Notes under the pieces: model-generated
The model's database searches: none
Seen by the model: only the letters and a program-made list of their open reading frames with translations
Told to the model about the DNA's origin: nothing
Made by a program: the position numbers and the translations under genes
NCBI RefSeq assembly: GCF_041435115.1
Contig: NZ_CP108046.1
Span: 372,001-436,000 of the forward strand
DNA: 64,000 nt
Direction: 5' to 3'
DNA from: Streptomyces sp. NBC_00289
GTDB lineage: Bacteria; Actinomycetota; Actinomycetes; Streptomycetales; Streptomycetaceae
Shown here: positions 5,114-60,291 of the stretch, piece by piece
Numbering within the stretch: the first letter of the stretch is position 1
Layout of the letters: each line of letters starts with the position of its first letter

Positions 5114-5695
5114 CTACGCCATCTCACAGGACTCTTTGCGCTGACCGGTTGAATCCGCCGCAGCGAAAGAGGCTAGGAGTTCCCTATACCGCGTCGCGGC
5201 GGTGGCTAGGCCCTCATCGGAGAGGCCGAAGACAGTGCCGTACAGCTTGACCATCGGCTGGATGTCAAACTGGCACAGCCTCAGGGTCGCTTCCCAGCTG
5301 CTGAGGAAAGTCTCGAGAGTGGCCCTGTTCATGCCTTCGGGGGTGTAGCGCTCGGCAGGGACGCCGGCGGTGACGGCGACAACAGCCTTTTTGCCCGCCA
5401 GCTGCGAGGTAGAGCCGTCCATGGTGAAGGCCCAGCCGAGAGTGAAAACCTTGTCCTGCCACTGCTTGAACAAAGGAGTGGTGTTGTACCAGTACACCGG
5501 GTGCTGGAAGACGATCACTTCGTGTTCGGCCAAGAGCGTCCGCTCAGCATCGGCGTCGATCTGGAAGTCGGGGTAGGCGGCGTAGAGGTCGTGCACGGTG
5601 ACATGGGCCAAGTCACGGACGGCGTCCACGAGCGCCGCATTGGCCTTCGACCGAGACAGGTCGGGGTGACCTAGGACAAGGAGAACCTTGGACAT
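5114..5695 (-). CDS. NAD(P)H-dependent flavodoxin-fold oxidoreductase (KefF/MdaB-like)
   Basis: The 193-residue protein has the Flavodoxin_2 fold of NAD(P)H quinone reductases: LVLGHPDLSRSKANAAL near the N-terminus (phosphate-binding loop for FMN/FAD), FQHPVYWYNTTPLFKQWQDK (flavin-contacting PxYWYxxP loop) and the AVVAVTAGVP strand. Such enzymes pass hydride from NAD(P)H to flavin and then to quinones, azo or nitro groups. It is the last gene of the cluster, separated from the PPTase gene by about 175 bases with no reading frame I can support. A GAAGG-type ribosome site precedes the ATG. In this setting it could reduce a nitro, azo or diazonium intermediate, but a stress role is equally possible. 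Confidence 0.75.
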   Translation of the reverse strand: MSKVLLVLGHPDLSRSKANAALVDAVRDLAHVTVHDLYAAYPDFQIDADAERTLLAEHEVIVFQHPVYWYNTTPLFKQWQDKVFTLGWAFTMDGSTSQLAGKKAVVAVTAGVPAERYTPEGMNRATLETFLSSWEATLRLCQFDIQPMVKLYGTVFGLSDEGLATAATRYRELLASFAAADSTGQRKESCEMA

Positions 5696-5871
5696 GATGA
5701 GGAACCTTCAATCTGAGTGAAATAGATGAATGGATGAGGGTTGGTCGAGTGTGACGGATCAGGGGAGCGCCATCAGTCCTTGAACAGGGTCGCCCGCGGT
5801 GAACTAGCTATTTGTGAAGCTGACGTGCCAAGTAGATCCCCAGACATCCATGCCGTGGCTGACACTGCTCC

Positions 5872-6642
5872 TCAGTCGGCGACTTTCATGCGGACGCGAA
5901 TCCCGCAGCCGGCCTGCGCTCGTACCGCGGTGGCCACGACATGCCCCGGGGTCACCAGCGGATCCGCCAGCATCAGCGTCGGCTCCCAGGGCAAGACCCT
6001 CAGCTGCGGCCCGGCGAGAGGGGGTGGCCAGGTCCCAGGTGTGGGGATGCGGCGGCCTACCCCGCCGCCCCGCAGCCCGTTCCCCTCTGCCTTGCCGAGG
6101 GCTTCCTTGCTGCTCCAGAGCCAGAGAAACGCAGCGGGTCGCTCATGCGCGGACAGTCCGTGCAGCCACTCCGCCTCGCGGCGGTCGAAGTACCTGCGGG
6201 CCAGCGCCAGAGCGGGCAGGGGTCTGATCATCTCCACATCGACTCCGACGGGACAGGTCCGGCTGAACGCCACCGCGACCACTCCCTGTCCGTGGCTGAT
6301 GCTCACATGGACGTGCTCACTCCCCCGCAGGATCGGCTGCCCGCCTGGCGCGTGATCGATCCGGAGGCCCGCGACCGGGATGTTCATGGATCTTGCGATT
6401 GCCCGCAGCAGCAGTCCGCGGGCTGCTTCCCGTTCGTTGCCGCGCACCGGTGCGACGACTACGCTCACCACGTCCGGCGCAGGGCTCCGCCCTGTCGTAG
6501 CCCCGCGCGGCGGCCAGCCGCTGCATGGCTGTTGCTGGCTGTCGGCACCAGCCACGATCTGTTTGACTGGTGCCGACGAGCGTGCTGAGTGGGTCCCCGC
6601 GTCAGGGCTTGGCTCCGCGGTGTCACCTGGTGGAGAGGGCAC
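5872..6642 (-). CDS. Sfp-type 4'-phosphopantetheinyl transferase
   Basis: The conserved pair of ACPS-domain motifs is present: GVDVE (residues 133-137 from the ATG at 6642) and WSSKEALGK (176-184), which bind Mg2+ and CoA. The enzyme loads the phosphopantetheine arm from CoA onto carrier-protein serines, here presumably the ACP at 17710-17973. The first 57 residues are low-complexity and not family-like, so translation may instead start at the GTG codons near 6471; the longer start overlaps the end of the aminotransferase gene by 20 bases. A dedicated PPTase supports the cluster acting as a self-contained pathway. Confidence 0.88.
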   Translation of the reverse strand: MPSPPGDTAEPSPDAGTHSARSSAPVKQIVAGADSQQQPCSGWPPRGATTGRSPAPDVVSVVVAPVRGNEREAARGLLLRAIARSMNIPVAGLRIDHAPGGQPILRGSEHVHVSISHGQGVVAVAFSRTCPVGVDVEMIRPLPALALARRYFDRREAEWLHGLSAHERPAAFLWLWSSKEALGKAEGNGLRGGGVGRRIPTPGTWPPPLAGPQLRVLPWEPTLMLADPLVTPGHVVATAVRAQAGCGIRVRMKVAD

Positions 6643-7939
6643 GCAGGCTCCGGACGATGACGTCCACGATCCGGTCCAGGTCCGCGTCGCTGTGCGCGGT
6701 GCTGAGGAACCACGGCTCGAGGGGGTTGGGGTGGAAGTACAGTCCCAGACGCTGGCAGTGAAGCTGGAACCGCCGGTGGGTGGGGAAATCGATTGCGTTC
6801 ATCGCCGCGTCGTAGGCTTCCAGGCCTTGCTGAGGGCTGTTCAGGAGGGCTACGGACATGACCGATCCGGCTCGGGCGATCCGCACGCCGTAGCCTGCCT
6901 CTGCGAAGACGGAGCGCAGACTCTTCTCCAGGAAGGCGCAGGATCGTTCGAGGTCGTCGTAGGCGGAGTCGTGTCCCTGGATCTTCTGCAGCATGCTGAC
7001 CACGGCCTGCATGGCCGCGTGATTGCCACTGTAGACGCCGCCGTGGAACGCCTGGTTCGAGGCGAGTGGCCGCATCAGGCGACGGCTGCCGCCGAAGGCG
7101 GCCACCGGGAATCCGCCCCCGAGGACCTTGGACACGATCGTGAGGTCGGGGCGAACACCGAGCAGCTCCTGGGCCCCACCCCGTGAGACACGGAACCCGG
7201 TGATCACCTCATCGAAGATCAGGAGCGCGCCGTGTTCGGCCGTGAGGTCCGCCAGTCGCTCGAGGAACCCGGGCAGCGGGTGCACCAGGCCCGCGTTGGC
7301 GCAGATGGGCTCGCAGATCACAGCGGCGATGTCGGACCCGTGTTCGGTGAAGACCGCGGTGAGGGCATCGACGTCGTTCCAGGGGAGTTGGACGGTGTGA
7401 TGCAGTGCCTCGGGGATCATTCCCGGAGCACCGCGCAGTCCGTCCCGCTCTCCTTCGGAATCGGTGGTGATCGGGTCGCGCAGGACGGTTTCGCTCCAGC
7501 CGTGGTAGTGGCCCTCGAAGGTCACGATGAGGTTCCGGCCGGTGGTGAAGCGGGCCAGGCGGAGTGCGGAGGTGATCGCCTCGGTGCCGGAGTTGGCGAA
7601 GCGGACCTGTTCGATCGAGGGGATCAGCGCGGAGATGAGTTCTCCCGCCTGGTGATCGAGCCGGTGGATGATTCCGGTCATCGCTCCAAGCCGCAGCCGC
7701 TCGGCGACCGGCTCGACGACGTCGGGGTCGGCAAAGCCGAAGAGGTGAGGGCCATATCCCATATTCACATCGATGAGTTCGTTGCCCTCGATGTCCCAGA
7801 TACGCGCGCCCTGGGCCCGATCGATGACGAGGGGGTCCTGGATGCCGAGGTTGCGCATGTTGCTGCTGCTGCCTCCGGCGATGACGGTCCGTGTCGCCTC
7901 AAGCAGCTCGGTGTTGGTGGAGGGGGCGTGTGCGGGCAT
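6623..7939 (-). CDS. Class III PLP aminotransferase / glutamate-1-semialdehyde aminomutase-like
   Basis: The 438-residue protein is a full-length fold-type I PLP enzyme close to glutamate-1-semialdehyde 2,1-aminomutases: NSGTEA (116-121) for the phosphate, FDEVITGFR with Asp243, and the Schiff-base lysine K271 in VSKVLGGGFP. It starts at an ATG with GAGGAG upstream at good spacing. Haem synthesis seems an unlikely role for a copy buried in a biosynthetic operon, so an amino transfer or 1,2-amino shift on a pathway intermediate is more likely. The substrate cannot be read from the sequence. Confidence 0.82.
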   Translation of the reverse strand: MPAHAPSTNTELLEATRTVIAGGSSSNMRNLGIQDPLVIDRAQGARIWDIEGNELIDVNMGYGPHLFGFADPDVVEPVAERLRLGAMTGIIHRLDHQAGELISALIPSIEQVRFANSGTEAITSALRLARFTTGRNLIVTFEGHYHGWSETVLRDPITTDSEGERDGLRGAPGMIPEALHHTVQLPWNDVDALTAVFTEHGSDIAAVICEPICANAGLVHPLPGFLERLADLTAEHGALLIFDEVITGFRVSRGGAQELLGVRPDLTIVSKVLGGGFPVAAFGGSRRLMRPLASNQAFHGGVYSGNHAAMQAVVSMLQKIQGHDSAYDDLERSCAFLEKSLRSVFAEAGYGVRIARAGSVMSVALLNSPQQGLEAYDAAMNAIDFPTHRRFQLHCQRLGLYFHPNPLEPWFLSTAHSDADLDRIVDVIVRSLRALSTR

Positions 7940-8099
7940 GACTCTGGTTCTCCTCAGTAAAAGCTGGTGGAAAGATGTTTCGGTCGATGTTCGAACCGCC
8001 GCTGGACTGCTTCTGACGGGCTGCCGGCGGCGGACCGCGGAACGGCAGTGGCCGCGTCAGAGCCGACATGGTTTGATCAGGCCGCTCGGTGCCGCGTCC

Positions 8100-9563
8100 T
8101 CATTCCCGGGCGACGTGTGCGCGGGAGCTGTAGTGCTCGAGCGCGCGGTCGACGAAGTGCTTTGCTGCTCCCAGGTACTGCGCCGGATCGAGCAGGTCGT
8201 CGATCTCCCCGGCCGAGAGGACATCGCTGATCCCGGGTATCTCCAGAAGGACGGCCGGCAGTGGCCGCCCGCTGGCCTGAGCATCCCGGCAGGCTTGTGC
8301 GACAACCGACTTGGCCGACCGGCCGGGAAGCCGGCGGCCGAGGACTGCGGAGAGCCTCTCGGAGACGATCAGTGCGCCGGTGGATGCTAGGTTGGCGCGC
8401 ATCCGGGCGGCGTCGACCATCATGCCGCTGCAGAGGTCGGCTGCGGTGCTGGCGGCGCCGCCGACCAGGCGCAGGCTCTCGCGCAGCGGCATCCACTCGG
8501 CGTGCCACGCGCCGGCGGGGCGTTCGTCTTCCGAGGCCATGCTCTGCACCAGCGTCAAAGTGAGCGGCGGGACTTGCAGGGCGGCTGTTCTGATGAGGGT
8601 GGCCAGCGCGGGGTTCTGTTTTTGCGGCATCGCCGAGGAGGCACCGTTTCCGTGTCCGGCAGGCTCGGCGATCTCGGCTACTTCGGTGCGGGCCAGGCTG
8701 AGGACGTCAAGCGCGATCTTGCCGAGGGCTCCTACGGTGACGTTCAATCCATGGGCCAGGTCCGCCATCGGGCTGCGCCGGGTGTGCCAGGGCAGGACCG
8801 GCTCGGCGAGGCCGAGTTCGGTTGCGAAGGCCCGGGTCAGTTCCGTGGTGTACGTACTGGCCTGGGGCGGGGGGACATCGTGGGCTTGCAGGTACGCGGC
8901 CATGGTGCCCGCCGCGCCCCCGAGCTGCACTGGAAGACGGGTGCCGAGCAGTTCCTCCAGTCGGTCCCGGGCATCGAGGAGCCCCATGAGCCACCCTGCG
9001 GCCTTCAGACCGAAGGTGGTCGGGGTGGCGTGCTGGGTCAGAGTCCGTCCCGCCATGGCGTCTTCCCGATGGCGGGAAGCGAGCGCTGCCAGCGCTTCGG
9101 CCGCCTGGTCCAGGTGCTGGACGATCAGTGTGATGCCGCGCACCGCCACGAGCATGGCGGCGGTGTCCAGGATGTCCTGGCTGGTGGAGCCCAGGTGGAC
9201 GAAGCGTGCTGCGTCTGGATCCCGGTCCCGGACGGCCGCCGCCAGCTCCTCGACAAGCGGAACCACCGGATTCGCGGCAGCTCGGGCTCTGCGGGCAAGG
9301 CCGCGAAGATCGAACGTGTGGGCTCGGACGGTCGCGGAGATTGCCTCGGCTGCGAAAGCCGGCACCGTACCGAGCCGCGCCTGAGCACGGGCGAGGGCGG
9401 CTTCGGTCTCCAGCATGGCCTGCAGCCACGCGCGGTCCGAGACCACGTCCTCGATGGGCGCCCCGACCCGGACGGGCGTCAGCAGTCCAGTGTCGTGCAG
9501 GTTTGTGACCTGTTGCCCGTGCGGGCAGGAGCAGGCATCAGGTGCCTGCGTCTGAGCATTCAC
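8100..9563 (-). CDS. creD: CreD-like nitrosuccinate lyase (fumarase/aspartase superfamily)
   Basis: The protein belongs to the adenylosuccinate lyase / PcaB group: GSTSQD (125-130), TLTQHATPTT with His178, and the flexible signature loop SSAMPQKQNP (309-318). By itself this could be a cycloisomerase. Its start GTG overlaps the stop of the CreE-like gene (GTGA), and that pairing is the known signature of the aspartate-nitrosuccinate pathway, in which CreD splits nitrosuccinate into fumarate and nitrous acid. The first 20 residues include a Cys-rich CSCPH segment not typical of the family. The assignment as lyase is firm; nitrosuccinate as substrate rests on the neighbour. Confidence 0.82.
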   Translation of the reverse strand: MNAQTQAPDACSCPHGQQVTNLHDTGLLTPVRVGAPIEDVVSDRAWLQAMLETEAALARAQARLGTVPAFAAEAISATVRAHTFDLRGLARRARAAANPVVPLVEELAAAVRDRDPDAARFVHLGSTSQDILDTAAMLVAVRGITLIVQHLDQAAEALAALASRHREDAMAGRTLTQHATPTTFGLKAAGWLMGLLDARDRLEELLGTRLPVQLGGAAGTMAAYLQAHDVPPPQASTYTTELTRAFATELGLAEPVLPWHTRRSPMADLAHGLNVTVGALGKIALDVLSLARTEVAEIAEPAGHGNGASSAMPQKQNPALATLIRTAALQVPPLTLTLVQSMASEDERPAGAWHAEWMPLRESLRLVGGAASTAADLCSGMMVDAARMRANLASTGALIVSERLSAVLGRRLPGRSAKSVVAQACRDAQASGRPLPAVLLEIPGISDVLSAGEIDDLLDPAQYLGAAKHFVDRALEHYSSRAHVARE

Positions 9564-11611
9564 GATGTGGTGGCCTCGCTGATGGTAGGGGTGGCGAGTT
9601 GAGGTGACTGCGGCATGAGACTGCTCCTCGGGGCGTAGCCCTCTTCAGGGCGGGCAAGCGCCGCTCGATCCTGCTTGATGCGGTCGAGGACGGCGCGGGC
9701 GACTGCGTCGGCGTCGGCCAAGGTCACCGAGTTCACACCAGGTCGGGCGCCAGCGGCGGTGCCCCAGTGGATGCCCTCGGTGGGAACGCCGAAGGCGAGC
9801 CGGCGAGGATGCTCGCCGCCGTTGGGCAGTACGACCCGATAGGACCTGGCCGACACCTGCAGGCCACCCGTGTCGTAGGCGCTGCCTTCGGGGTCGCGGA
9901 TCTCGTAGGAGGCGCACTGGCCCGTGTTCAGCAGGTGGGTCAGCAGCGGATCTGCGGTGCGCCGCAGGTCCGGTGCCGGCAAGCGGGCTTCGATCAGTGC
10001 CGTGGCGGTATGGAGCGAGCCTGGCACGGACGGCGACCGGAGTGTGAACGTGCCCTGCTGGTCCGAGCAGTCCACCTGTGCATCTGGTCCGACCACTTCT
10101 AGAAGTCCCGCCCGGACAAGTGCTTCCACCTCTTCGATACGCTGGATGGGCGGTCCTATGGACAAGAAGGCGTTCAGCGGTGTGAACCAGCGGTCAAGGT
10201 CCTCACGATGTGAACATGCGGCCAGACCCGCGTGGTCGACGGTGAGGCGGACCTCGTTCCGCAGGTCCCGCAGGACATCCAGGGCCGCCTTGGTCGGCCC
10301 GCTGACGTTACCCAATGATGCCAGTGCGATGTCCTGCGTCAGGTGTTCCAGCAGCCAGTGCCGGAAGTCGGCGGGACCCGTGAAGGTCCGGTCGCGGTAG
10401 GGGGCAGCGAGAGTCCGCCAGTCCCAGGTTCGCCCCTGCGGAATACCGAATTCCCTGCGCAGGGCAGCCTCGCCCTTGCTGCCCCATGGCTCAGTCAGGT
10501 AGCGGCGCCGGAAGAGGACCATGGTTTCCGCGGACGCTTGCTGTTCGACGATCCGCGCGTAGTAGACGGTTTCGACTTCCTTGGCGATCAATGGCCAGAT
10601 CTCGCGTCTGAAGTTCAGCCCCGCCGCACCGGTACGCGCGCTGCGCAACCACTCGGCGAACGTGGCTGTCAGGACTAGTGGCTCGTGCCGACCGTGCGGC
10701 CCTTTCTCGTTGACGGCGCGGGCGTGATACGGGATCCCGCGCCGGGACCCGGCCACCATCACCGGTTCACGCCCGGACGGATGGTAGACCAGTCGACCGT
10801 TACGTCGGACAAACTCCCCGCCCCGTCCGTCGGTTAGCAGCGCCAGGTAATCGAAGAAGCACAGCCCGAGTCCGACCAGCGCCACCGGCTGGCCCGGGGC
10901 GATCATTGAGAGGTCGGCATCGGCGGGACTACCAGGTGGAACGTAGATCAAGCCATGCCGTCGGGCGAAGCGTTCCCGTTCGCGTTCGCGGAAGTCAGGT
11001 CTTACGGGCAGGTGCCCCTGTGTCAGTACGACTGTGCTCAGGTCATTCAGGACAGTTCCGTTCTCCAACGGCACCCGTTGCCGGGGGGTGTCGCGGAAGC
11101 GCTCACCGGTGGTCCCGGGTACAGCAGAGTCGTCGAGCCGGACCGCTCTAGAGCGATGCACGACGACGTGCATGTACGGCGACGCCGCGGCGACCGTCTT
11201 GCGGAAAACCCAGCCCAGATATGTGCCGTAGAACCGGCGGCTGGGGTAGGTATCGCCGGTGAGTCTATGTGCCTCCTGGCTGCAGGCGCTGTCGACACCG
11301 AAGTCTTCGGGCGCGGAGGCCACCTCCTGAGCCCATTCCCACAGGCTCGGGCCGGTCACGAGGGGGCCTTGCATGACGACGGTCTCATCCGGAAACACCG
11401 TGATCTGGGAGGCCACGGTGTTCATGAGGAGGCAGTCGGGCTGGTCGGACCGCCAGATCCGACCGGAACCTGGGGGGTAGGGGTCCACCACATGGACCGC
11501 GACAGGCGAGTCGGGTGGATGGATGCAAAGGTTCGCGTGCAGGCGCAGCAGGACACCCAAGCCTCGTGGTCCCATCCCGACAATGCACACATTGTCTTGA
11601 CGATGACTCAT
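9560..11611 (-). CDS. creE: CreE-like FAD-dependent L-aspartate N-monooxygenase
   Basis: The 683-residue protein has the FAD/NAD(P)-binding domain of the family that includes cremeomycin CreE: an N-terminal dinucleotide loop GMGPRG (12-17), the PGSGRIWRSDQPDCLLMNT segment and a second nucleotide-binding loop near residue 240 (ALVGLGLCFFDYL). CreE oxidises the amino group of L-aspartate to nitrosuccinate with NADPH and O2. It begins at an ATG with AAAGGA upstream and overlaps the lyase gene by 4 bases, so the two enzymes are probably made together. The DAHP synthase gene lies upstream across a gap of about 80 bases. The pair makes nitrous acid, the nitrogen donor for diazo and N-N chemistry. 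Family membership is clear; activity is inferred. Confidence 0.83.
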   Translation of the reverse strand: MSHRQDNVCIVGMGPRGLGVLLRLHANLCIHPPDSPVAVHVVDPYPPGSGRIWRSDQPDCLLMNTVASQITVFPDETVVMQGPLVTGPSLWEWAQEVASAPEDFGVDSACSQEAHRLTGDTYPSRRFYGTYLGWVFRKTVAAASPYMHVVVHRSRAVRLDDSAVPGTTGERFRDTPRQRVPLENGTVLNDLSTVVLTQGHLPVRPDFRERERERFARRHGLIYVPPGSPADADLSMIAPGQPVALVGLGLCFFDYLALLTDGRGGEFVRRNGRLVYHPSGREPVMVAGSRRGIPYHARAVNEKGPHGRHEPLVLTATFAEWLRSARTGAAGLNFRREIWPLIAKEVETVYYARIVEQQASAETMVLFRRRYLTEPWGSKGEAALRREFGIPQGRTWDWRTLAAPYRDRTFTGPADFRHWLLEHLTQDIALASLGNVSGPTKAALDVLRDLRNEVRLTVDHAGLAACSHREDLDRWFTPLNAFLSIGPPIQRIEEVEALVRAGLLEVVGPDAQVDCSDQQGTFTLRSPSVPGSLHTATALIEARLPAPDLRRTADPLLTHLLNTGQCASYEIRDPEGSAYDTGGLQVSARSYRVVLPNGGEHPRRLAFGVPTEGIHWGTAAGARPGVNSVTLADADAVARAVLDRIKQDRAALARPEEGYAPRSSLMPQSPQLATPTISEATTS

Positions 11612-11689
11612 TTTTTGTCCTTTCGAGACCCGGGGGGGAGCGATGCGAGGCGCTGTGACAGCTCATTAAGGGAGGCGCGCGGGACGCGG

Positions 11690-12877
11690 CTACGTCACGG
11701 CGAGGAAGTGCCGTACGAGGGCGTCGGCCTGATCGGTATTCAAGCGGGGGTCGCAGGCGCTGGTGTAGCGGGCCGCCTGCGGTGAGCTGAGGTCGTCTGG
11801 GTGCCACGCGCATTCGACGACGTGATCGGGAGTGACCTCGATGTGCAGCCCCCCGGCCCATTGGCCGGCCCCGCGCAGGACAGCGACGAACGAAGTCACC
11901 TCCTGCATCATCGCGGGCATTAACCGGGTCTTTTGGCCTCGGGTTGTGGTGACGGTGTTGCCGTGCATGGGGTCGCACAGCCAGGTGACCGGAATCCCTT
12001 GCCGCGCCACGGCGGCGACGATGGGAGAAAGGGCGTATTCGACGGCAGCAGCGCCCATGCGGACGATCAGGGTAAGTCTCCCGGGTTCTGCAAGGGGGTT
12101 GAGCCGTGCCACCAGTCGGGCCACGTCTGCAGGGGCAGCCGTGGGACCGATCTTGACGCCGACGGGATTGCAGATGTTCTCCGCGAAGGAAACATGCCAT
12201 TCATCCAGAGCCCGGGTCCGATCCCCGATCCAGCCGAAGTGGCCCGAGCTGGCATAATGGGTCTCGTCCCATCCGCGCACCAAGGGAAGCTCGTAGTCTT
12301 TGAGTAGCAATTCGTGGGAGACGAAAACGTGCTCCTCAGGCGGCCATTCCCGCCAGGTGGCGCCGACGTGCTTCAGGACATGTCTCGCCCTGGCGTAGGC
12401 GATCAGCAGACGTCGGGGATCGTGCTGCCGGGCGGCCGGGTCGGCAGCAGCGCCATTGACAGCGTCTCCCCGATAGCTGGGGACGCTGCGACCGTCCGGA
12501 AGTCGCTCCTCCGCCTGCGACCGTGGCTTGGCGTACTGGCCGGCCAACCGACCGATCGTCACCACGGGCATCCCTGTGCCCGAACGGCAGGCATCCGACA
12601 GACGACGGAGCAGATCCAGTTTGCGGTTGACAGTCTCGACTCCGGCCTCCTGGAACAGCTCGGCGCAGTCGCCGCCCTGCAGCACCAGGGACCGACCGCT
12701 CTCAACCAGCTCCAGTCGGGATCTCAGCGTGTTGAGTTCTGCGACGGTTATCAAGGGCGCCAGGCTGCGGAGGGTGGCTCTGACGTCCTCCACCTGTGCG
12801 GGATCAGGCCAGCACGGTTGTTGTTGCGCGGTGAGGATCTCTAGGGGAGGAAGGCTCAGCACTTCCCTGACTCTCAT
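11690..12877 (-). CDS. Class II 3-deoxy-7-phosphoheptulonate (DAHP) synthase
   Basis: The enzyme condenses phosphoenolpyruvate and erythrose 4-phosphate, the entry step of the shikimate pathway. Class II hallmarks are present: QGGDCAELF with metal-ligand Cys71, GRLAGQYAKPRS (109-120), CDPMHGNT and a final CDPRLN block. At 395 residues it is shorter than housekeeping type II enzymes (about 460), as is usual for copies in secondary-metabolite clusters, which often lack the feedback-binding N-terminal part. Its presence points to an aromatic (shikimate-derived) building block and extra supply of precursor. No other shikimate gene is in the cluster. Confidence 0.9.
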   Translation of the reverse strand: MRVREVLSLPPLEILTAQQQPCWPDPAQVEDVRATLRSLAPLITVAELNTLRSRLELVESGRSLVLQGGDCAELFQEAGVETVNRKLDLLRRLSDACRSGTGMPVVTIGRLAGQYAKPRSQAEERLPDGRSVPSYRGDAVNGAAADPAARQHDPRRLLIAYARARHVLKHVGATWREWPPEEHVFVSHELLLKDYELPLVRGWDETHYASSGHFGWIGDRTRALDEWHVSFAENICNPVGVKIGPTAAPADVARLVARLNPLAEPGRLTLIVRMGAAAVEYALSPIVAAVARQGIPVTWLCDPMHGNTVTTTRGQKTRLMPAMMQEVTSFVAVLRGAGQWAGGLHIEVTPDHVVECAWHPDDLSSPQAARYTSACDPRLNTDQADALVRHFLAVT

Positions 12878-14340: not shown

Positions 14341-15936
14341 TCAGGCGCGGAGGGTGAATTTGCGGACCTTCCCGGTCGTTCCGACGGGGATCTTGTCCGG
14401 GGGGACGACGCTCACTTGGCGCACCGTGCGGGCTGCCGAAGGATCGAGTACACCCAGGATGTGGGTCTCGTAGTCCAGCTCGATGTCGCTGTAGGCGGAG
14501 GGCTGCAGTCTCAGCAGGATCTCGGTGTGGTACTCACCGTCGGCGTGCGAGACGACTGCGCTGCAGTCCAGTACTGCAGGGCAGGCGGCGAGGATCTGTT
14601 CCTCGATGACGGTCGTATAGATACGAGTGCCGTCCGCCCGGTCGAGCGCATCAGCCACACGGTCGACGTGGTAGTAGTAGCCGCCGCTGTCGCGGTAGCC
14701 GAGATCGCCGGTGAGGAAGAACCCGTCACTCCGGGCCTGATAGGTCTTGGCGGAGTCGTTCCAGTAACCGGGGGACAAGGTGGGCGAACAGATCGCGAGT
14801 TGGCCTACGCTGCCGTCCGGAAGTGGGTTCCCCTCGGGGTCGAGAACGCGGACCTCGGTGAATGCGTGCGGGCGTCCGATGCACCGGTTGTAGTGGTCGG
14901 TGTCCTGGTGATGGGTGATGGAGAATTGTGAATGCCCCATCTCGGATGAGCCGAATCCGTCGATGAACAGCGATCCCTCAACAGTGTGGCGCCCGTGGGC
15001 GGTGGCTTGCTGGCGCTGCCCGAAGGCTACTAGGGCGCGGATGTGGGGTTCGTGGGCGCTGTCGCCGGTGTTCCACCAGGCGCGTACCGAACGCAGCCGG
15101 GAGGGGGACGGGTTCAGGCTGAGCAGGTCCACCCAGGTTTTTGGGAAGCCGTAGACACCGTGCGGCTGCCACGCCTCGATCGCCTCCAGCACTGACGTGC
15201 CGTCCTGCGTTGACAACTGAAGGAACGCCGAACGGTTGCACAGCGCGGAGAGCACGGCCGCAATCATCGAGTTGTGCATCGGCAGTGCGCTGAGCATCCG
15301 CTCACTGCCCTGCGCCCGAGGCAGCGTCAGCCAGTGGCGCAGGCCGGCGAACAGGCTGCTGTGGGTGGAGATCACAGCCTTCGGCATGCCGGTTGTTCCG
15401 GAGGAGTGTGTGATGGCGACGGGATCGTCCGCGTGGTGGCAGTACGGTGCGATAGTGCGGGTGGGGTCGCCGTCCGCACATTCCTCCAGAGCGCGCAGCG
15501 ACGGGGTCCCGATGTCGTGCTGAGCCCAGGAGGCCAGCTGGTCCCGCTCGACCAAGACGAGTGACGGCCCGAGACCGCGCACGTAGGCCGTGCGGGTCTC
15601 CTCGTCGAGGAGGTAATTGACGAAGGCGGGAATGGCACCGATGCGGTTGGCGGCGAAGTAAGTCAGAACGTAGTCGACAGCGCGCCGGGAGCACACGACG
15701 ATGACGTCCCTGGGTCGTATGCCGTGCCCGTGCAGCCAGGCGGCCCGTACGGCGACCAGGCGGTCCAGCTCGCCGAGAGACAGTTCATGTGTCCCCTCGG
15801 AGTGGCTGTCGGCGGAGGTGTCGAAGGTGAGTGCGGGATCCTCCGGAGGAACTCCGTGAGCCAAAAGGCGTTCAATGACGTTGCCTGCCCCCAGGAGAGG
15901 GTCGCGGGCCAGTGTTCCGCGGGTCGTGCCATTCAT
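14341..15936 (-). CDS. Class I adenylate-forming ligase (candidate nitrite-activating enzyme)
   Basis: The full ANL-superfamily set is present in 531 residues: the P-loop HSSGTTGMPK (177-186), GSSEMG, FLTGDLGYRD and the C-terminal catalytic lysine in PVGTTGKVRK. Enzymes of this family in nitrous-acid clusters (CreM, AvaA6) use ATP to activate nitrite for diazotisation, while others load carboxylates onto CoA or ACP. Lying between the short KS-like gene and the DUF6125-like gene, and less like standard benzoate ligases than the copy at 18144-19628, it is my preferred candidate for the nitrite-using ligase. That choice is inference only. Confidence 0.78.
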   Translation of the reverse strand: MNGTTRGTLARDPLLGAGNVIERLLAHGVPPEDPALTFDTSADSHSEGTHELSLGELDRLVAVRAAWLHGHGIRPRDVIVVCSRRAVDYVLTYFAANRIGAIPAFVNYLLDEETRTAYVRGLGPSLVLVERDQLASWAQHDIGTPSLRALEECADGDPTRTIAPYCHHADDPVAITHSSGTTGMPKAVISTHSSLFAGLRHWLTLPRAQGSERMLSALPMHNSMIAAVLSALCNRSAFLQLSTQDGTSVLEAIEAWQPHGVYGFPKTWVDLLSLNPSPSRLRSVRAWWNTGDSAHEPHIRALVAFGQRQQATAHGRHTVEGSLFIDGFGSSEMGHSQFSITHHQDTDHYNRCIGRPHAFTEVRVLDPEGNPLPDGSVGQLAICSPTLSPGYWNDSAKTYQARSDGFFLTGDLGYRDSGGYYYHVDRVADALDRADGTRIYTTVIEEQILAACPAVLDCSAVVSHADGEYHTEILLRLQPSAYSDIELDYETHILGVLDPSAARTVRQVSVVPPDKIPVGTTGKVRKFTLRA

Positions 15937-16523
15937 GGTGATGTCGTCTTGTCTGTGATGTCGTCGGTGGAAGTGCCGGAGTTCGGTGCGGTCAGTAGGA
16001 AGGCGGCCGCCTCGTACGGCTCGCCGGTGCCATTGACCGGGTCAATCAAGATCAACAGTGAGTGGTCCGATTCGCCGTCCTTCACCAGCTGGGCGGCCAG
16101 CTGCATTCCTTCAGCGAGCGGTTGGCCGATCGGGCTGGTGCAGATCACCGGCCCGGTCAGGCCCCATCGGGCGGAGATATGCCCGATCACGGAATTCGGG
16201 ACGGACATGAAGAACAACTGAGGCGAGATACGCTCACCCCGATCCACCGCCGAGGCGACCGCCTGTGCGGTAGAGACATCACCGAGCACGCTGACCAGGA
16301 GGACCGCGGTACGGGTCCCGCCTGACGGCTCGTCGGGCGCCCGTCCGGTCAGGCATGCGGTGGCGGCAGCGGCCGCCACCGCGCTGAAACTGGACCCTGT
16401 GAAGCCACGCAGACCAGGGAGGGGCTCGTCGGGCACCGGCGCTTGCCCGCGGGCTACAACGGTCAGACCCGCTGCGGCAGCGGCCTGGTCGGCCGCATCC
16501 ACACAAAACTCTCTGTCCGTCAT
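15933..16523 (-). CDS. Short beta-ketoacyl synthase-like protein (partner of the KS)
   Basis: A 196-residue protein starting at the ATG that overlaps the KS stop (ATGA). It covers only a thiolase-fold half similar to 'ketoacyl synthase N-terminal-like' proteins: TAVLLVSVLGDVSTAQAVA, MSVPNSVIGHISARWGL and VICTSPIGQPLAEG with Cys128 at the nucleophile position. There is no His-His half, so it cannot act as an ordinary condensing enzyme. It sits where a chain-length factor normally sits in a type II PKS operon, so a structural or gatekeeping partner of the KS is likely. Its stop overlaps the start of the second ligase gene. Confidence 0.7.
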   Translation of the reverse strand: MTDREFCVDAADQAAAAAGLTVVARGQAPVPDEPLPGLRGFTGSSFSAVAAAAATACLTGRAPDEPSGGTRTAVLLVSVLGDVSTAQAVASAVDRGERISPQLFFMSVPNSVIGHISARWGLTGPVICTSPIGQPLAEGMQLAAQLVKDGESDHSLLILIDPVNGTGEPYEAAAFLLTAPNSGTSTDDITDKTTSP

Positions 16524-17713
16524 GCGCGTCCCACCACCAGTGCGGTATTGGCGCCCCCAAAGGCCGCGTTGAGACTCAGCGCGTAGCGGATGTCCGATGC
16601 TGCCTGAGACTGGCTCAGCACCAGATTGAGCCCGCACTGCTCGTCCGCTCCCAGGTATCCGGCGTTGACTGGAAGCTGCCCGGACTGCAACGCAAGCACC
16701 GTCGTGATGAGTTCGAGCATGCCCGAGGCCTCCAATGCGTGTCCGTGCACGGATTTGCTGGAACTGACGGCGACGTGCGCCGAATGGCTGCCCAGTGCCC
16801 GGTGCAGGGCGGCGCTTTCGGCTGCGTCGTTGTGGGTCGTGCCGGTGCCGTGCGCGTTGACGTAGTCGATGGCCTGGGGATCGAGACCGGCACGGTCGAG
16901 CGCGCTGGTGATCGCGCGAGCCAGGCCCGCGCCGGCGGGGTGCGGCCGGCAGACGTGGTGAGCGTCACCGGACAGTGCCCAGCTCATCAGGGCTGCCTGT
17001 GCCCGTCCGCCGGCCCGTCCCGCCTTCTCCAGGACCACCGCGCCGACGGCGTCGCCGAGCAGCAGGCCCCGTCGGCCGCTGCTGAACGGTCGGACATGCT
17101 GATCGTCGCTCAGGGCGCCGCCGGCCGAGAAAAGCGCGAACCGTTCGGCATCCACAAGGTAGCCGCTCGCAACGACGGCACACTCGGTACTACCGGACGC
17201 GATCATCGAAGCGGCCTCGGCCAGTGCGGTACTGGCAGCCGTGCAGGCGTTGGTGTAGACGCGCCTCGGGTACAGCCCGCATCTGGCAGCCACCTCGACG
17301 GCCGAGGCACGGGCGCCGTGCACCCGGAAGTCGACGGCCGACTGACGGGCTACCTCACGGTCTGCCTGGATTGCCAGGAACAGCGGTGTCGCCGCCCGCT
17401 CCGCCTTCGTCAGACCTGCCATCGCGCAGGCCTCGGTGACGGAGGAGGTCAACTCCTCGGGCAGGCTACGGGCGTCGTGGTGGACCGCTCCGAGGTCGGT
17501 GCGACTACCGGAGCCGACGGCGAAGCGGCGCACCGACCGGAAGGCGGGGGCGCCTATCGAGACGCCCCGAAGAAGCGGGGCTGTGCCGCGTCCGAAGCCC
17601 GACAGTACAGCCATGCCCGTGACCGCGACCGGCATCTGGGGCGTTGCTGTCCGGCGCCGCTGCTCCCGTACCGGCGCAGGTGTTTCCTCGAAACTTTGGT
17701 GACGGGACATCAT
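16520..17713 (-). CDS. Beta-ketoacyl-ACP synthase (FabF-like, type II PKS/FAS)
   Basis: The complete catalytic triad is present: Cys157 in TNACTAASTA, His288 in NAHGTGTTHND and His325 in KSVHGHALEASG, with Lys320. It therefore can condense malonyl-ACP with an acyl primer. Length (397) is normal for FabF-type enzymes. Translation begins within the stop region of the ACP gene, giving an ACP-KS-KS-like block that is tightly coupled. A ketoreductase lies at the head of the operon, but no dehydratase or acyltransferase gene is seen, so malonyl loading must come from primary metabolism and chain reduction would stop at hydroxyl unless another enzyme acts. Confidence 0.87.
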   Translation of the reverse strand: MMSRHQSFEETPAPVREQRRRTATPQMPVAVTGMAVLSGFGRGTAPLLRGVSIGAPAFRSVRRFAVGSGSRTDLGAVHHDARSLPEELTSSVTEACAMAGLTKAERAATPLFLAIQADREVARQSAVDFRVHGARASAVEVAARCGLYPRRVYTNACTAASTALAEAASMIASGSTECAVVASGYLVDAERFALFSAGGALSDDQHVRPFSSGRRGLLLGDAVGAVVLEKAGRAGGRAQAALMSWALSGDAHHVCRPHPAGAGLARAITSALDRAGLDPQAIDYVNAHGTGTTHNDAAESAALHRALGSHSAHVAVSSSKSVHGHALEASGMLELITTVLALQSGQLPVNAGYLGADEQCGLNLVLSQSQAASDIRYALSLNAAFGGANTALVVGRA

Positions 17714-17973
17714 GCCGACGTCGGCTCGGGCACGGAACGGGCCGTCAGGGCGCTCACGAACTCCCCCACGGTCAAACCCGCCAGCCGCTCGGTCTCGTCC
17801 TCGTCCACGTGGACGCCGAACTGCTCCTCGATGAGCATCAGGACTTCGGCGAGAGTGAGAGACTCCAGGTCCAGACCGTCGGGGCCCAGCGGAGTCTCGT
17901 CGCTGACACCGTCGACGTCGTAGTTGAGGGACTGCAGGGCATCGAGAAGGAACTTACTCGTCAGCACGCTCAT
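17710..17973 (-). CDS. Acyl carrier protein
   Basis: An 87-residue acidic protein with the carrier fold. The attachment serine lies in GLDLESLTLAEVLMLIEEQF, the usual D-S-L site appearing here as E-S-L. It carries acyl intermediates on phosphopantetheine and would be the partner of the KS, KR, ligase and PPTase of this cluster. It precedes the KS with overlapping start/stop codons. About 170 bases without a gene separate it from the ligase gene upstream. Confidence 0.9.
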   Translation of the reverse strand: MSVLTSKFLLDALQSLNYDVDGVSDETPLGPDGLDLESLTLAEVLMLIEEQFGVHVDEDETERLAGLTVGEFVSALTARSVPEPTSA

Positions 17974-18143
17974 GATGGGTGATCTCCTATGGGATGGTTC
18001 GTCAGGACTGTTCGACAGGCGGGCGATGGGCGTGGGTTCCCGGGCCGCTGAGGGCTGGTGAGCTCGTGGCGCAGCCCCCGCCCGGCCGATCAGGGGCGGG
18101 AGCAGGGCGGAGGACTGAGGACCGGGGCGGGGTGGGCGAACGG

Positions 18144-19628
18144 CTACGGCGAGGAAGGGTTGTCCGCGGCGGCGGCCCTGAGCACCGCAAGATCGCGAAC
18201 CAGCTTCCCGGTCGAGGTACGCGGGAGACTGGACAGCAGATGCAGGCGCCGTGGGCGTTTGAAAGCGGCTAGGCGAGACCGCATCTCACTGCGGAGGTGC
18301 GCGGCGCCGGTGCCGGGCGCCACCGTCAGATACGCCACGATGTGTCCGGCGAAGACGACGACGGCCTCGTGGACTCCCGGAAGGGCGGCCAGGACCTGTT
18401 CCACCTCGGTCAGGTCGACCTTCAAACCGCCTACGGAGACCTGCGAGTCCAGTCGTCCTGTGACGGTCAACACCTCTGTGTCGGCGTCGAGGGCGGCGGC
18501 GTCCCGAGTACGCAGCCAGCCGTCCGTCCAGCGGCTGGCGTCCGTCGTGCTGAGATAGGGGTTCTCCGGAGCGCGGACCAGCAACTCCCCCTTTTCCACC
18601 CGCACAGCGACACCGGGGGCGACAGGGCCGAGGGCCGGCCGGTGTCGGCCGAAGAAGTCCAACGCGATGAAGCCGGTCTCGGTCATTCCGTAGCATTCGC
18701 CCAGCGGAATGCCGTATTGCTCGGTGAACTGCTCCGCGACCTCTGGGCGGATCTTCTCACCGCCGCTAACTGCCCGGGCCAGCTGTGGAGCCCCGGCCTT
18801 TGGGGTGCGCGTGGTGAGCAGGCCGTAGTGGAAGGGCACCCCGAGCAGGGTGGCCGACTCAGTTCGAGAAGTCACCGCGTCCAATATTGAGGCGGCGCTG
18901 AACTGTTTGGGCAGTGTCATCAGCACTCCCGCGTGCAAGCTGTGCAGGAGCCCGCCCACCAGTCCGAAGGAATGGGCGATAGAACTTAGCTGTACTACCC
19001 GCTCACCCCGACCGGGCATGCCGTCCGTCTGCCGGTACCGGTCGATCTCCCTGAGCAGATCGTGCACGCCACGTCCGATGATCTTCGGGTTTCCGGTCGA
19101 TCCTGAGCTCAGTTGGAGCAGCGCGTGAGCAGTGCGTGCCGGGGTCCCAGCCCTCAGCGCATAGCGGGCCGTGACCTCGACGTAGCCCCGCAACATGGTC
19201 GTGACCTCGGTCTTGGGGGAGACGACGACCTGAGGATCGATCCGCTTCACCGCCTCGGCGGCCTCATGCTCGGTCAGCCTGTGGTCGAGAACGGTGACCT
19301 GTGCACCGATCCTCCATGAGGCGAGCAGGTGGCCGACATAGCACAGCGACGGCGGGAGTCGCAGCGCGACTGTTCCGCCAGAGGTTAGCCCGGCCTTCTC
19401 CAGCCGGCGCTGGCATTCCTGAACGATGCGGCGCAGGTCGGCCCGGTCCACGACTCGATCGAGTTGCAGGCAGGGCTGGCGGGATGGCCCGGCCAGCAGT
19501 AGGTCGTCCACCCATGCCGATTGCCGTTGTTCCGGGTGCGCGGGAGGCAGCGGGGTCGTCATCCCGGGTGCATCGGCTGTTCGTGGTTGGGTGGCGGCGT
19601 CCCCGGCTTCTGTGGTCAGGGGGTCCAT
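18144..19628 (-). CDS. Adenylate-forming acyl/benzoate-type ligase
   Basis: A 494-residue ANL enzyme related to benzoate-CoA/ACP ligases: P-loop LSSGSTGNPK (173-182), GECYGMTETGFIALDFF, the hinge block VTGRLDSQVSVGGLKV and the C-terminal STGKLVRD lysine motif. It would adenylate a carboxylic acid and pass it to CoA or to the ACP encoded just downstream. The first 30 residues are low complexity, so a later start is possible. It overlaps the end of the UbiD gene by 13 bases. Its primer acid is unknown; an aromatic acid fits both the family and the DAHP synthase in the cluster. Confidence 0.8.
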   Translation of the reverse strand: MDPLTTEAGDAATQPRTADAPGMTTPLPPAHPEQRQSAWVDDLLLAGPSRQPCLQLDRVVDRADLRRIVQECQRRLEKAGLTSGGTVALRLPPSLCYVGHLLASWRIGAQVTVLDHRLTEHEAAEAVKRIDPQVVVSPKTEVTTMLRGYVEVTARYALRAGTPARTAHALLQLSSGSTGNPKIIGRGVHDLLREIDRYRQTDGMPGRGERVVQLSSIAHSFGLVGGLLHSLHAGVLMTLPKQFSAASILDAVTSRTESATLLGVPFHYGLLTTRTPKAGAPQLARAVSGGEKIRPEVAEQFTEQYGIPLGECYGMTETGFIALDFFGRHRPALGPVAPGVAVRVEKGELLVRAPENPYLSTTDASRWTDGWLRTRDAAALDADTEVLTVTGRLDSQVSVGGLKVDLTEVEQVLAALPGVHEAVVVFAGHIVAYLTVAPGTGAAHLRSEMRSRLAAFKRPRRLHLLSSLPRTSTGKLVRDLAVLRAAAADNPSSP

Positions 19629-21079
19629 GTCCTGACCACCTCCTGCTGAAGGTCGGCCGGGTACCCGTGCTGGAAGGAACTTCTGACCAGTCGTCCTTGG
19701 CCGGGTTCTGGCAGGAGGCAGTCATAGACGCCCTTCGGGCCGCTGGCGGACGCCTGCTCGGCTGGCGAATAGCATGCTAGCAATGGGACGATGGGCCCGG
19801 TCCGGACGTGATGACCCTCGGTGGGGTGCCAGCGAGTGGCCAGGGCCCATATCAGCTCGCTGATGTTGCTCGGATCGATGTCGTCGTCGAGGACGAAGGT
19901 CCGGGTCAACAGCACGTAAGCGCGGCAGGTGGCAAGGGCATCTTTAATTCGTTCCACCAGTTCGCCCGATGTCAGACCAGGCAACTGCTCCCGCCAGGTT
20001 CCTGACACGGTGATGGCCGTCCAGTGGGTGGCGCTCTCGAAGGGCGCCCAGACGGTGCTCACTGGCAGTCCCGCCGCACGCAGGTGCGAGAGAATCTCTG
20101 CGGCCAACGAGATCCCAGAGGCGGTATGAAACTCGTCCACCGGCTGACCCTCCACAACGTGAGGCCAGATCGGGTCATGGCGGTGAGTGACAGCCTCGAC
20201 GGTGTACGAGGGCTGTTTACTGCCGTGTTGGGGGATATAGCCGGTGAACTCCCCCATCGGCCCTTCGTCGGCGTCCGGGGAGGTCGACAGATACCCTTCA
20301 ATCACAATCTCGGCGTTCGCGGGCACCATCAGGTCGACCGTCTCGCAGCGCACGACCTCCACCGGCTTGCCCGTCAGAGCACCGAGGAAGCCAGCTTCCT
20401 CCACTCCGTCCGGCAGGGGCATGCCGGCGACGAAGGGAAGCGCCGGGTCCCCTCCCTGGACCAAGGCATAAGGCATGGGTCTGCCTAGTTCGGCCCATTG
20501 ACGCCAAACCTTGTGCAGGTGCTGGCCAGGGGCGACCAGGCCGGTCAGGCGCTTCTCGTCGATCATCATGATCCGCGCGATGGACCAGTTCGTGAACGTG
20601 CCGTCGGGCGTACACGCGACGATGGTTCCCCAAGTGTTGATGTACCTGCCGCCGTCGCCGAGGTGCAGCAGAGGAGCGGGGAATCCCTCCAGCGAGGCCC
20701 GCGGCCCGACGCGGATGTTCTCCTTGCAGGGACCGGTCGCCACCTCAACAGGGGGCACTGTTGGTCGCCGCCGCGCCTCAGCTATGTGTTCGACGATCTG
20801 ACGACCGGTCACCTCCGCAGGCAGTCCAAGGGACAGTGCGACGCGGGCGAGTGGTCGCCGGGGATCGGAGCTGAGCGCGGCCGGAGCACCGAGTACGCGA
20901 TGCCCGGCAGCAACGCCGGTGAGACGGGTGAACAGCGGAGCCGGCGAGCGTGTCTCATAGCTCCTGCGAATGATCGCACCCATTTCGAGACACGGATCCA
21001 CCAGGCGGTCGACGCAGATCACATCGCCACATTCGGCGAGTGCATCCACGTATTCCCGCAAGTCATTCGGGCGAGTCAT
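19616..21079 (-). CDS. ubiD: UbiD-family prenyl-FMN-dependent decarboxylase
   Basis: The protein has the UbiD fold and its conserved segments: ENIRVGPRASLEGFPAPLLH, INTWGTIVACTPDGTFTNW, the MPLPDGVEEA loop and DEGPMGEFTGYIP, which holds the paired glutamates of the active site. UbiD enzymes remove or add CO2 on aromatic, heteroaromatic or alpha,beta-unsaturated acids by cycloaddition to prenylated FMN. I prefer the ATG at 21079 (MTRPNDLREYVDAL), which has GAAGG upstream, to the ATG at 21094. It follows its cofactor-making partner UbiX. A decarboxylase inside a nitrous-acid cluster suggests removal of the carboxyl group from an arene or enoate. Confidence 0.87.
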   Translation of the reverse strand: MTRPNDLREYVDALAECGDVICVDRLVDPCLEMGAIIRRSYETRSPAPLFTRLTGVAAGHRVLGAPAALSSDPRRPLARVALSLGLPAEVTGRQIVEHIAEARRRPTVPPVEVATGPCKENIRVGPRASLEGFPAPLLHLGDGGRYINTWGTIVACTPDGTFTNWSIARIMMIDEKRLTGLVAPGQHLHKVWRQWAELGRPMPYALVQGGDPALPFVAGMPLPDGVEEAGFLGALTGKPVEVVRCETVDLMVPANAEIVIEGYLSTSPDADEGPMGEFTGYIPQHGSKQPSYTVEAVTHRHDPIWPHVVEGQPVDEFHTASGISLAAEILSHLRAAGLPVSTVWAPFESATHWTAITVSGTWREQLPGLTSGELVERIKDALATCRAYVLLTRTFVLDDDIDPSNISELIWALATRWHPTEGHHVRTGPIVPLLACYSPAEQASASGPKGVYDCLLPEPGQGRLVRSSFQHGYPADLQQEVVRTWTP

Positions 21080-21139
21080 CCCAGGACCTTCCATGAACAG
21101 TCATCGCAGCGATCGCTACGACATCTGGACGGGGCGCTG

Positions 21140-21802
21140 TCACCGCACTCCGTCCGCTTCGCGGGGGGCACCGCTCCACCGAGGGGCAATTTCGGACTCG
21201 ATGCCGAACTGATCCAACACTCTCATCACGATATGGTCGACCATGTCAGAAATACTTGTCGGCCTATTGTAGAAAGCTGGCATTGGCGGCAGGATTGTCG
21301 CACCCATCCTGGAAAGCGCCAACATGTTCTCAAGATGAATATCCGACAGCGGAGTCTCGCGCGCCACCAATACCAGTCGGCGCCGCTCCTTCAAAGTCAC
21401 GTCTGCGGCACGGGCAATCAGGTCACCGCCGTATCCGGCGCGAACAGCAGCGAGCGTCTTCATGCTGCACGGCACTACCACCATGCCCTGCACCGGAAAC
21501 GATCCGCTGGCGATGGGAGCCGCCTGATCCGCCGAAGAATATGAGAAGTCTGCCATATCGGCGACTTCGCGCACCGAATAGCAGGTCTCCATGGCAAGTG
21601 TGGCCCGCGCCCACTTTGTCATCACCAGGTGGGTCTCAAGCCCCGGATGCTTCCTCGCGACTTCCAGAAGCCTGACACCGATCGCAACACCGGTGGCGCC
21701 TGTCATGCCGACGACCAAGCGTGTCGTCGCCCCTTGCGACATATCGGTGGCTGGGAGCCGGAGAATGTTCGAGTGGGTCCCCTGCTGCGTTTCCTGTGCC
21801 AT
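21140..21802 (-). CDS. ubiX: UbiX-family flavin prenyltransferase
   Basis: The N-terminal half carries the flavoprotein fold of UbiX (VVGMTGATGVAIGVRLLE, THLVMTKWARATLAMET), followed by the VQGMVVVPCSMKTLAAVRAG block and the basic RRLVLVARETPLSDIHLENM segment that binds the prenyl phosphate. UbiX attaches a dimethylallyl unit to FMN to make the UbiD cofactor. The start ATG lies three bases after the ketoreductase stop. The paired ubiX-ubiD genes make the decarboxylase independent of a housekeeping UbiX. Confidence 0.88.
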   Translation of the reverse strand: MAQETQQGTHSNILRLPATDMSQGATTRLVVGMTGATGVAIGVRLLEVARKHPGLETHLVMTKWARATLAMETCYSVREVADMADFSYSSADQAAPIASGSFPVQGMVVVPCSMKTLAAVRAGYGGDLIARAADVTLKERRRLVLVARETPLSDIHLENMLALSRMGATILPPMPAFYNRPTSISDMVDHIVMRVLDQFGIESEIAPRWSGAPREADGVR

Positions 21803-21804
21803 CC

Positions 21805-22509
21805 TCAGTGCCCCATGCCCAGTCCACCGTCCACGGGCAGAACAGCTCCCGTGATGTAACCGCTCTCCTCTGCGGCCAGCCAGGTCACGGCACTGGCGAC
21901 GTCGCGGACACTCCCGGGCCGCCCGAGCGGGATCTCCTCAAGGACCTTTGCTCGGTGGGCGCTCGGCAGCGCGGCTGTCATCTCGGTGTCGATCCATCCC
22001 GGCGCCACGACGTTTGTCGTGATATTCCGAGGCCCGAGTTCCCGCACCATCGACCGGGCAATGCCGACCAGCCCCGATTTACTGGCCGCGTAGTTGGTCT
22101 GCCCCGCTCCCCCGGAATATGCGGACACCGAAGACATGAATATCACGCGGCCCCAACGCGCCCGAACCATGGGCCGAACAGCGCGGCGCGCACACCGCCA
22201 GGCACCGTACAGATTCGTATCCAACACCCGACTGAACTGCTCGTCCCCCATACGCATCAACAGCGAGTCCTCGGTGATCCCGGCATTCGCCACAAGAATC
22301 TCCACCGGCCCGATCTCCTCCTCCACAGCAGTGAAGGCGCGATCGACCCCTCTCGGATCTGTGACATCGCAGGCAACGTTGAAGAAACCGTCCGGCGCAG
22401 CCGAGTCGCGACGAGTGACTGCGACTCTGTACCCCTTTTCTTGAAATGCCTCGGCCACGGCGAGACCAATACCACGGCTCCCTCCTGTCACAAGCACGGT
22501 ACGGGGCAC
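21805..22509 (-). CDS. 3-oxoacyl-ACP reductase (FabG-type ketoreductase)
   Basis: A 234-residue short-chain dehydrogenase with TGGSRGIG (8-15) for NADPH, NAG (75-77) and the catalytic Ser127, Tyr140 and Lys144 in MSSVSAYSGGAGQTNYAASK. It would reduce the 3-oxo group formed by the KS on the ACP. It is the first gene of the operon, starting at a GTG with a TGAGG ribosome site about 8 bases upstream. The promoter for the whole cluster should lie in 22510-22800. Confidence 0.88.
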   Translation of the reverse strand: MPRTVLVTGGSRGIGLAVAEAFQEKGYRVAVTRRDSAAPDGFFNVACDVTDPRGVDRAFTAVEEEIGPVEILVANAGITEDSLLMRMGDEQFSRVLDTNLYGAWRCARRAVRPMVRARWGRVIFMSSVSAYSGGAGQTNYAASKSGLVGIARSMVRELGPRNITTNVVAPGWIDTEMTAALPSAHRAKVLEEIPLGRPGSVRDVASAVTWLAAEESGYITGAVLPVDGGLGMGH

Positions 22510-41997: not shown

Positions 41998-41999
41998 TA

Positions 42000-60289: not shown

Positions 60290-60291
60290 TA

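Follow-up and report, generated by a model that had tools for sequence, protein, structure and literature searches.

The 64,000-nucleotide stretch of the Streptomyces sp. NBC_00289 chromosome analyzed here (the window; positions 372001–436000 of contig NZ_CP108046.1, referred to as C1, which is 10,626,179 bp long) contains a 16-gene block at positions 5114–22509 of the minus strand that is, with a probability of about 85%, a spinamycin-type biosynthetic gene cluster. The preliminary description of this DNA named no characterized nitrous acid cluster with such a gene set. However, counterparts of 15 of the 16 genes are located within 50 kb on contig NZ_BMRP01000010 of Streptomyces albospinus JCM 3399, the producer of the nitrogen–nitrogen antifungal antibiotic spinamycin, so the gene set is not new and is that of a modestly altered spinamycin-type cluster. 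Fourteen of these genes are collinear and on the same strand, in the order ketoreductase (KR), UbiD, ligase, acyl carrier protein (ACP), ketosynthase (KS), chain-length factor (CLF), diazotase, AvaB-like protein, Rv2466c-like protein, 3-deoxy-D-arabinoheptulosonate 7-phosphate (DAHP) synthase, CreE:CreD, aminotransferase and phosphopantetheinyl transferase (PPTase), and the S. albospinus UbiX gene lies ∼4 kb beyond this run. According to a review, spinamycin was isolated from S. albospinus, and the spi cluster, with a natural CreE-CreD fusion termed SpiED, was identified there (PMC11705231). On the basis of the strain, the CreE-CreD fusion and the diazotase, and not of a comparison of accessions, the S. 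albospinus locus was equated with the spi cluster and its diazotase with SpiA7. The two clusters share a diazotase of the same clade, a PctV-type aminotransferase, a DAHP synthase, an Rv2466c-like protein and a UbiD decarboxylase. They differ in that CreE and CreD form a single 1275-aa open reading frame (ORF) in S. albospinus and two separate genes in the window, and in that the NBC_00289 chromosome carries two copies of the cluster.

From its 5′ end, the block comprises the following genes (percentages are protein identities to the S. albospinus counterpart unless stated otherwise):

21805–22509, minus strand: FabG-type KR, the AvaA8 counterpart by family (PF13561/PF00106; 69%)
21140–21802, minus strand: UbiX flavin prenyltransferase, source of prenylated flavin mononucleotide (prFMN) for UbiD (PF02441, BagM/FevK-like)
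19616–21094, minus strand: UbiD decarboxylase (NF041219 BagN/FevL, 639 of 1000 bits; 74%)
18144–19628, minus strand: starter acyl-ACP ligase, the AvaA1 counterpart (PF00501 and PF13193; 67%)
17710–17973, minus strand: ACP (PF00550; serine in LDLES; 58%)
16520–17713, minus strand: KS of a highly reducing type II polyketide synthase (PKS) (PF02801/PF00109; Cys-His-His motifs; 63%)
15933–16523, minus strand: half-size CLF partner (Ketoacyl-synt_2 under its cut-off; AmcG 31.6 bits; 50%)
14341–15936, minus strand: ATP-dependent diazotase of the S. albospinus (SpiA7) clade (AvaA6 diazotase model; phylogenetic tree; 67%)
13701–14264, minus strand: AvaB-like helper with a predicted V4R/phenol-sensor fold (fold comparison)
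12991–13704, minus strand: Rv2466c-like protein with a DsbA fold, at the place of AvaA7 (PF22234, 196 bits; 64%)
11690–12877, minus strand: class II DAHP synthase, extra (PF01474, 411 bits)
9560–11611, minus strand: CreE-type FAD monooxygenase, nitrosuccinate synthase (PF13454; 8cp2, 640 bits)
8100–9563, minus strand: CreD nitrosuccinate lyase (NF052556, 632.7 of 650 bits; 5xny CreD, 466 bits)
6623–7939, minus strand: PctV-type 3-aminobenzoate synthase with a class III aminotransferase fold (57–58% to 4zm3/4zm4; 75%)
5872–6642, minus strand: Sfp-type PPTase (PF01648; 51%)
5114–5695, minus strand: flavodoxin-fold NAD(P)H oxidoreductase (PF02525, 149 bits)

All 16 ORFs were confirmed, and for 15 of the proteins a Pfam match at E 0.01 was of the kind given in the preliminary description, whose 16-gene block is present. 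For the short KS-like protein, this match was below the curated cut-off (23.7 vs 25 bits), and the 187-aa protein encoded at 13701–14264, described earlier as DUF6125-like and referred to here as AvaB-like, had no Pfam match at this threshold. The GC content at third codon positions is 0.70–0.85 in each of the 16 genes. In 5015 codons of 15 genes aligned with S. albospinus, identities at codon positions 1, 2 and 3 were 0.75, 0.80 and 0.50, a pattern that indicates protein-coding selection. The pair described as a CreE-type FAD protein and a fumarase-superfamily lyase with a GTGA overlap was found as such, with the CreE stop and the CreD start sharing four bases. Its assignment is in agreement with the match of CreD to the nitrosuccinate lyase model NF052556, slightly below the cut-off, and to the 5xny CreD structure. 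For CreE, 8cp2 was the only solved relative, and the protein shares 62% identity with the CreE portion of the fused S. albospinus protein. An unfused 711-aa protein of NPDC020096 is 86% identical to the same part of the fusion. Beyond S. albospinus, CreE-CreD fusions with both Pfam domains were observed in several Streptomyces and in many Nocardia and Rathayibacter (P0241, P0243–P0272), and in an ava-type locus (L148:6859-7788) the start of CreE and the end of CreD are joined in one short, 309-aa ORF, as would result from loss of the part between them.

The two adenylate-forming ligases of the preliminary description proved to be of different kinds. One is the starter ligase, and the other, encoded at 14341–15936, is not an ordinary acyl ligase but a diazotase relative. 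Its nearest relative is the S. albospinus protein, and a diazotase of Streptomyces sp. NBC_00133 was also found at 67% identity in a protein search. In a tree of 32 sequences, these three proteins form a clade with a support of 100/100, with a warning from the tool that long branches meet, including between the spinamycin-type group and another. Diazotases with more than 60% identity were present in 2 of 392 Streptomyces genomes (NBC_00289 and S. albospinus), and a search at E 1e-190 in a set of 395 genomes related to S. albospinus gave a match in only one, S. albospinus itself; the two genome sets overlap widely. When the neighborhoods of the best 80 of 327 diazotase loci from a collection of named genomes were inspected (≤10 kb per side, some ended by contig ends), CreE was matched in nine and CreD in six, and S. 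albospinus alone had a match to UbiD, the aminotransferase, the DAHP synthase or the Rv2466c-like protein at E 1e-5.

Several observations weigh against the spinamycin-type assignment. Protein identities to S. albospinus are only 50–75%. The window lacks any match to two proteins that adjoin the PPTase and UbiX of S. albospinus, an 842-aa protein with an AAA-ATPase domain and a luciferase-like protein of 390 aa. A search of the NBC_00289 genome for the latter, run without a positive control, gave no relative either. Conversely, the flavodoxin-fold gene had no tblastn match at E 1e-3 in the 50-kb S. albospinus stretch. The UbiX proteins are not orthologous, as that of the window shares 51% identity with the UbiX encoded close to the S. 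albospinus cluster and 64% with another UbiX of that species. Finally, the best NCBIfam model for the diazotase, AvaA6 diazotase, scored 409 bits, far below its cut-off of 975, and UbiD is likewise far below the curated cut-off of its best model. Because of these differences, the exact product could differ from spinamycin. A LuxR-like identity of the 842-aa protein was considered and dropped, since its Pfam matches to AAA and ATPase domains were below cut-offs and no DNA-binding domain was found.

A related but different nitrogen–nitrogen (N-N) product, in which the added flavodoxin-fold oxidoreductase and the lack of the luciferase-like enzyme would change the last step to give, for example, a hydrazine or hydrazone in place of the hydrazide of spinamycin, is a possibility that we hold only tentatively. 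It would be in line with the different accessory oxidoreductases of the two loci and with the CLF being the least conserved part of the PKS (50%). In addition, the review states that the hydrazide of spinamycin may form spontaneously or enzymatically and that an enzyme for the diazonium-to-hydrazide step has not been identified so far (PMC11705231). However, the luciferase-like gene may not belong to the spinamycin pathway, and the flavodoxin-fold gene, set off by 176 bases, may be unrelated to the cluster.

The spinamycin-type assignment is further supported by the genes for starter supply. The aminotransferase is 57–58% identical to 4zm3 and 4zm4, which are titled as PctV 3-aminobenzoate synthase and its complex with 3-dehydroshikimate, and it scored 515 bits against PctV vs 274 bits against glutamate-semialdehyde aminomutase. 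The pyridoxal phosphate-binding lysine is kept: Lys271 occupies the alignment position of the lysine replaced by arginine in 4zm4, titled as a K276R mutant. The NBC_00289 genome contains only one other homologue of the enzyme at E 1e-30, which is 34% identical. Among 394 genomes from the same class, three contain a relative at E 1e-150, and the two matches outside NBC_00289 are 58–59% identical, with merely weak AMP-binding matches nearby. PctV originates from pactamycin biosynthesis, and its gene context differs from that of the window aminotransferase. In the literature, PctV is described as a 3-aminobenzoate synthase that was applied to dehydroshikimate (PMC5879953). Given the identity to PctV, the starter is very probably 3-aminobenzoate, and a PctV relative is present in both the window and the S. 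albospinus cluster. According to the review, SpiA7 diazotizes 3-aminocinnamic acid, an aniline that lacks a hydroxyl group (PMC11705231), which matches substrates derived from 3-aminobenzoate. The extra DAHP synthase would be consistent with additional flux into the shikimate pathway. Its codon 319 is the only TTA codon among the 16 genes, and PF01474 matched a fuller-length homologue (696 bits), distinct from the cluster enzyme, in the rest of the genome. A further DAHP synthase matched by this family is located at C1:765559-766692.

The route of the avenalumate (ava) and p-coumarate (cma) clusters, which proceeds through 3-amino-4-hydroxybenzoate (3,4-AHBA), is unlikely, because no match to DHQS (PF01959), which we take to be the AvaH/GriH family, was found in the NBC_00289 genome, while two ava-type genomes (G027 and G361) among five others tested have one within ∼5 kb of the diazotase. 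The remaining three, which include S. albospinus, had no DHQS match. For AvaI, the comparison covered the 16 proteins, whose Pfam results contain no DeoC-type match.

The highly reducing type II PKS set comprises a loading ligase, ACP, KS, CLF and KR. The KS retains Cys157, His288 and His323 (motif positions). The short protein next to it, described earlier as KS-like, is indeed of this kind and can be specified further as a half-size CLF partner; its start is likely the ATG at 16523, which overlaps the KS stop and is preferred to the GTG at 16637. Matches to the NCBIfam models AmcF (147.6 bits, KS) and AmcG (CLF) could indicate a pathway to a five-membered beta-amino acid of the cispentacin type. 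This is extremely unlikely, as both scores are far below the cut-offs (325 and 80), FabF-type models outscore AmcF on the KS, and the KS and CLF share 63% and 50% identity with their S. albospinus counterparts; cispentacin-type chemistry was dropped.

UbiD contains an EGPMGE motif at residues 277–282. Its best solved relative is 6da6 (560 bits), which we take to be the tautomycetin enzyme TtnD, followed by 7abo/4ip2 (385 bits), Fdc1 (340 bits) and lower-scoring structures. The UbiD family is common to the BagN/FevL and 6da6 decarboxylases, and the window protein is below the BagN/FevL cut-off. The ranking of 6da6 over the other structures suggests that the enzyme probably decarboxylates an unsaturated (polyenoic) chain. 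In a sample of 394 genomes from the same family, which evidently did not include S. albospinus, 14 had a UbiD relative at E 1e-150, and the best other match was 62% identical.

The order of genes in the window, with ligase, ACP, KS, CLF, diazotase and AvaB-like genes followed by one at the AvaA7 place and by CreE and CreD, is similar to that of the ava and cma clusters (PMC10777205). The window has one ACP gene instead of two, genes for 3-aminobenzoate instead of 3,4-AHBA supply, and no counterpart of the protein at the AvaA7 place, and DAHP synthase, UbiD, UbiX and Rv2466c-like genes are added. The resemblance, interrupted by the inserted DAHP synthase gene, raises the possibility of diazotization-dependent deamination as in avenalumate and p-coumarate biosynthesis, in which hydride would take the place of the diazonium group and the action of UbiD would leave a nitrogen-free styrene or vinyl polyene. 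The position of the Rv2466c-like gene, which occupies that of AvaA7, and the BagN/FevL kind of the UbiD would be compatible with such a pathway. AvaA7 was compared by position, with the 306-aa protein at its place in L148 as a stand-in, and tblastn searches with this protein gave best E values of 2.4 in the window and 0.69 in the S. albospinus stretch. The absence of a counterpart from both, the different starter genes, and the N-N product of S. albospinus, which has the same Rv2466c-like gene at that position, make deamination very unlikely. On the positional argument, nitrogen removal is not expected and an N-N product is favored. The N-N, diazo or deaminated aryl-polyketide hybrid proposed earlier is a reasonable product class: an aryl polyketide formed through diazonium chemistry is supported, and the deaminated option is disfavored. 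A plain styrene or cinnamic acid product was set aside for the same two reasons, the missing AvaA7-place counterpart and the N-N compound of S. albospinus.

The Rv2466c-like protein contains a CPWA motif, which is CPWC in three of its four solved relatives and CPWS in the fourth. Loss of the second active-site cysteine as a cluster-specific adaptation was rejected, since the only other homologue in the genome also has CPWAW. The AvaB-like protein (13701–14264) is predicted to adopt a V4R/Bet3/H-NOX-like (phenol-sensor) fold. Only the fold comparison was informative, as no useful match (best E 0.21) came from a search of Protein Data Bank sequences with an alignment of AvaB-like proteins. The sensor domains of DmpR, MopR and PoxR, which have the V4R fold, share 9–12% sequence identity with it in fold alignments, and it differs from them in being a stand-alone protein. 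It has a zinc-like Cys/acid pattern, with the acid in seven of nine aligned sequences. For AvaB itself, stimulation of the PKS is reported and described as unexplained (PMC10777205). A more elaborate proposal is an N-N aryl polyene unlike spinamycin, in which the flavodoxin-fold enzyme would replace the luciferase-like one and reduce or trap an unstabilized diazonium, while the AvaB-like protein, as a V4R protein with bound zinc, would hold the aryl starter or the chain; we regard this combination as unlikely.

For the spinamycin-type cluster, a pathway can be proposed in which every enzymatic step and the product are assigned by homology, with gene content, gene order, the diazotase clade, the PctV identity and the DHQS and AvaA7-place negatives as the observed basis. 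The extra DAHP synthase would raise 3-dehydroshikimate, which the PctV-type enzyme would convert to 3-aminobenzoate, and the ligase would load the latter onto the ACP. Chain extension by KS/CLF, KR and a host dehydratase, assisted by the AvaB-like protein, would give a 3-aminophenyl polyenoic acid. From aspartate, CreE and CreD would form nitrous acid, with which the SpiA7-type diazotase would convert the aryl amine to a reactive diazonium, and trapping of the diazonium would yield an aryl N-N (hydrazide or hydrazone) polyene. Before or after diazotization, UbiD, with prFMN supplied by UbiX, would remove the chain carboxylate.

Other loci contain parts of this gene set. A cousin locus with a different order (L149:5-14523, genome G790) contains CreE (ended by the locus end), ACP, a 33% identical diazotase and PPTase, as well as UbiD, UbiX, AvaB-like, CLF, KS and KR genes. 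In L150:580-11717 (genome G762), DAHP synthase, ligase, PPTase, ACP, KS, CLF, AvaB-like, KR, UbiD and UbiX genes occur together, and no diazotase or CreE/CreD match was found within 20 kb; this is possibly a vinyl-arene or aryl-polyene pathway. Three Micromonospora/Salinispora diazotase loci (L010, L023 and L039) have no CreE/CreD match and share dioxygenase-like genes downstream of the diazotase, as judged from translations and not from a family search. They apparently serve another product class.

The cluster is located inside the terminal inverted repeat of the chromosome, which therefore carries two copies of it. Over the window, the opposite arm of the repeat has 99.98% identity (3 mismatches and 10 gap openings), the very ends of the arms match at 99.8%, and the stretches at 436–446, 460–470, 500–505 and 600–605 kb match at 99.95–100%. 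The comparison covered the window, the ends and these sampled stretches, so the repeat, if uninterrupted, extends beyond 605 kb. The second copies of the diazotase, aminotransferase, UbiD and Rv2466c-like genes gave 100% identical matches. Transposase genes flank the cluster at 974–2626, 23661–24935 and 25572–26729. Further along, in the 29–52 kb part of the window, 7 of the 10 ORFs inspected encode transposases, and a biopterin-dependent aromatic amino acid hydroxylase is encoded in this transposase-rich stretch at 50850–51728. Two pairs of near-identical repeats (99.8–99.9%), 40737–42000 with 60285–61548 and 46306–47386 with 61595–62675, became apparent when the window was aligned with the mirrored arm and are probably insertion sequences and their neighbors.

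A second, diverged cluster of this type helps to narrow the candidates for the diazonium-to-hydrazide step. Genes common to both clusters (Rv2466c-like, AvaB-like, UbiD and KR) stay candidates, and an essential role of the luciferase-like gene, which is missing from the window, becomes less likely, provided that both clusters make the same product. The unfused CreE/CreD pair is available for comparison with the natural fusion, and the predicted fold of the AvaB-like protein offers a structural starting point for AvaB and the unexplained stimulation of the PKS that is described for it (PMC10777205).

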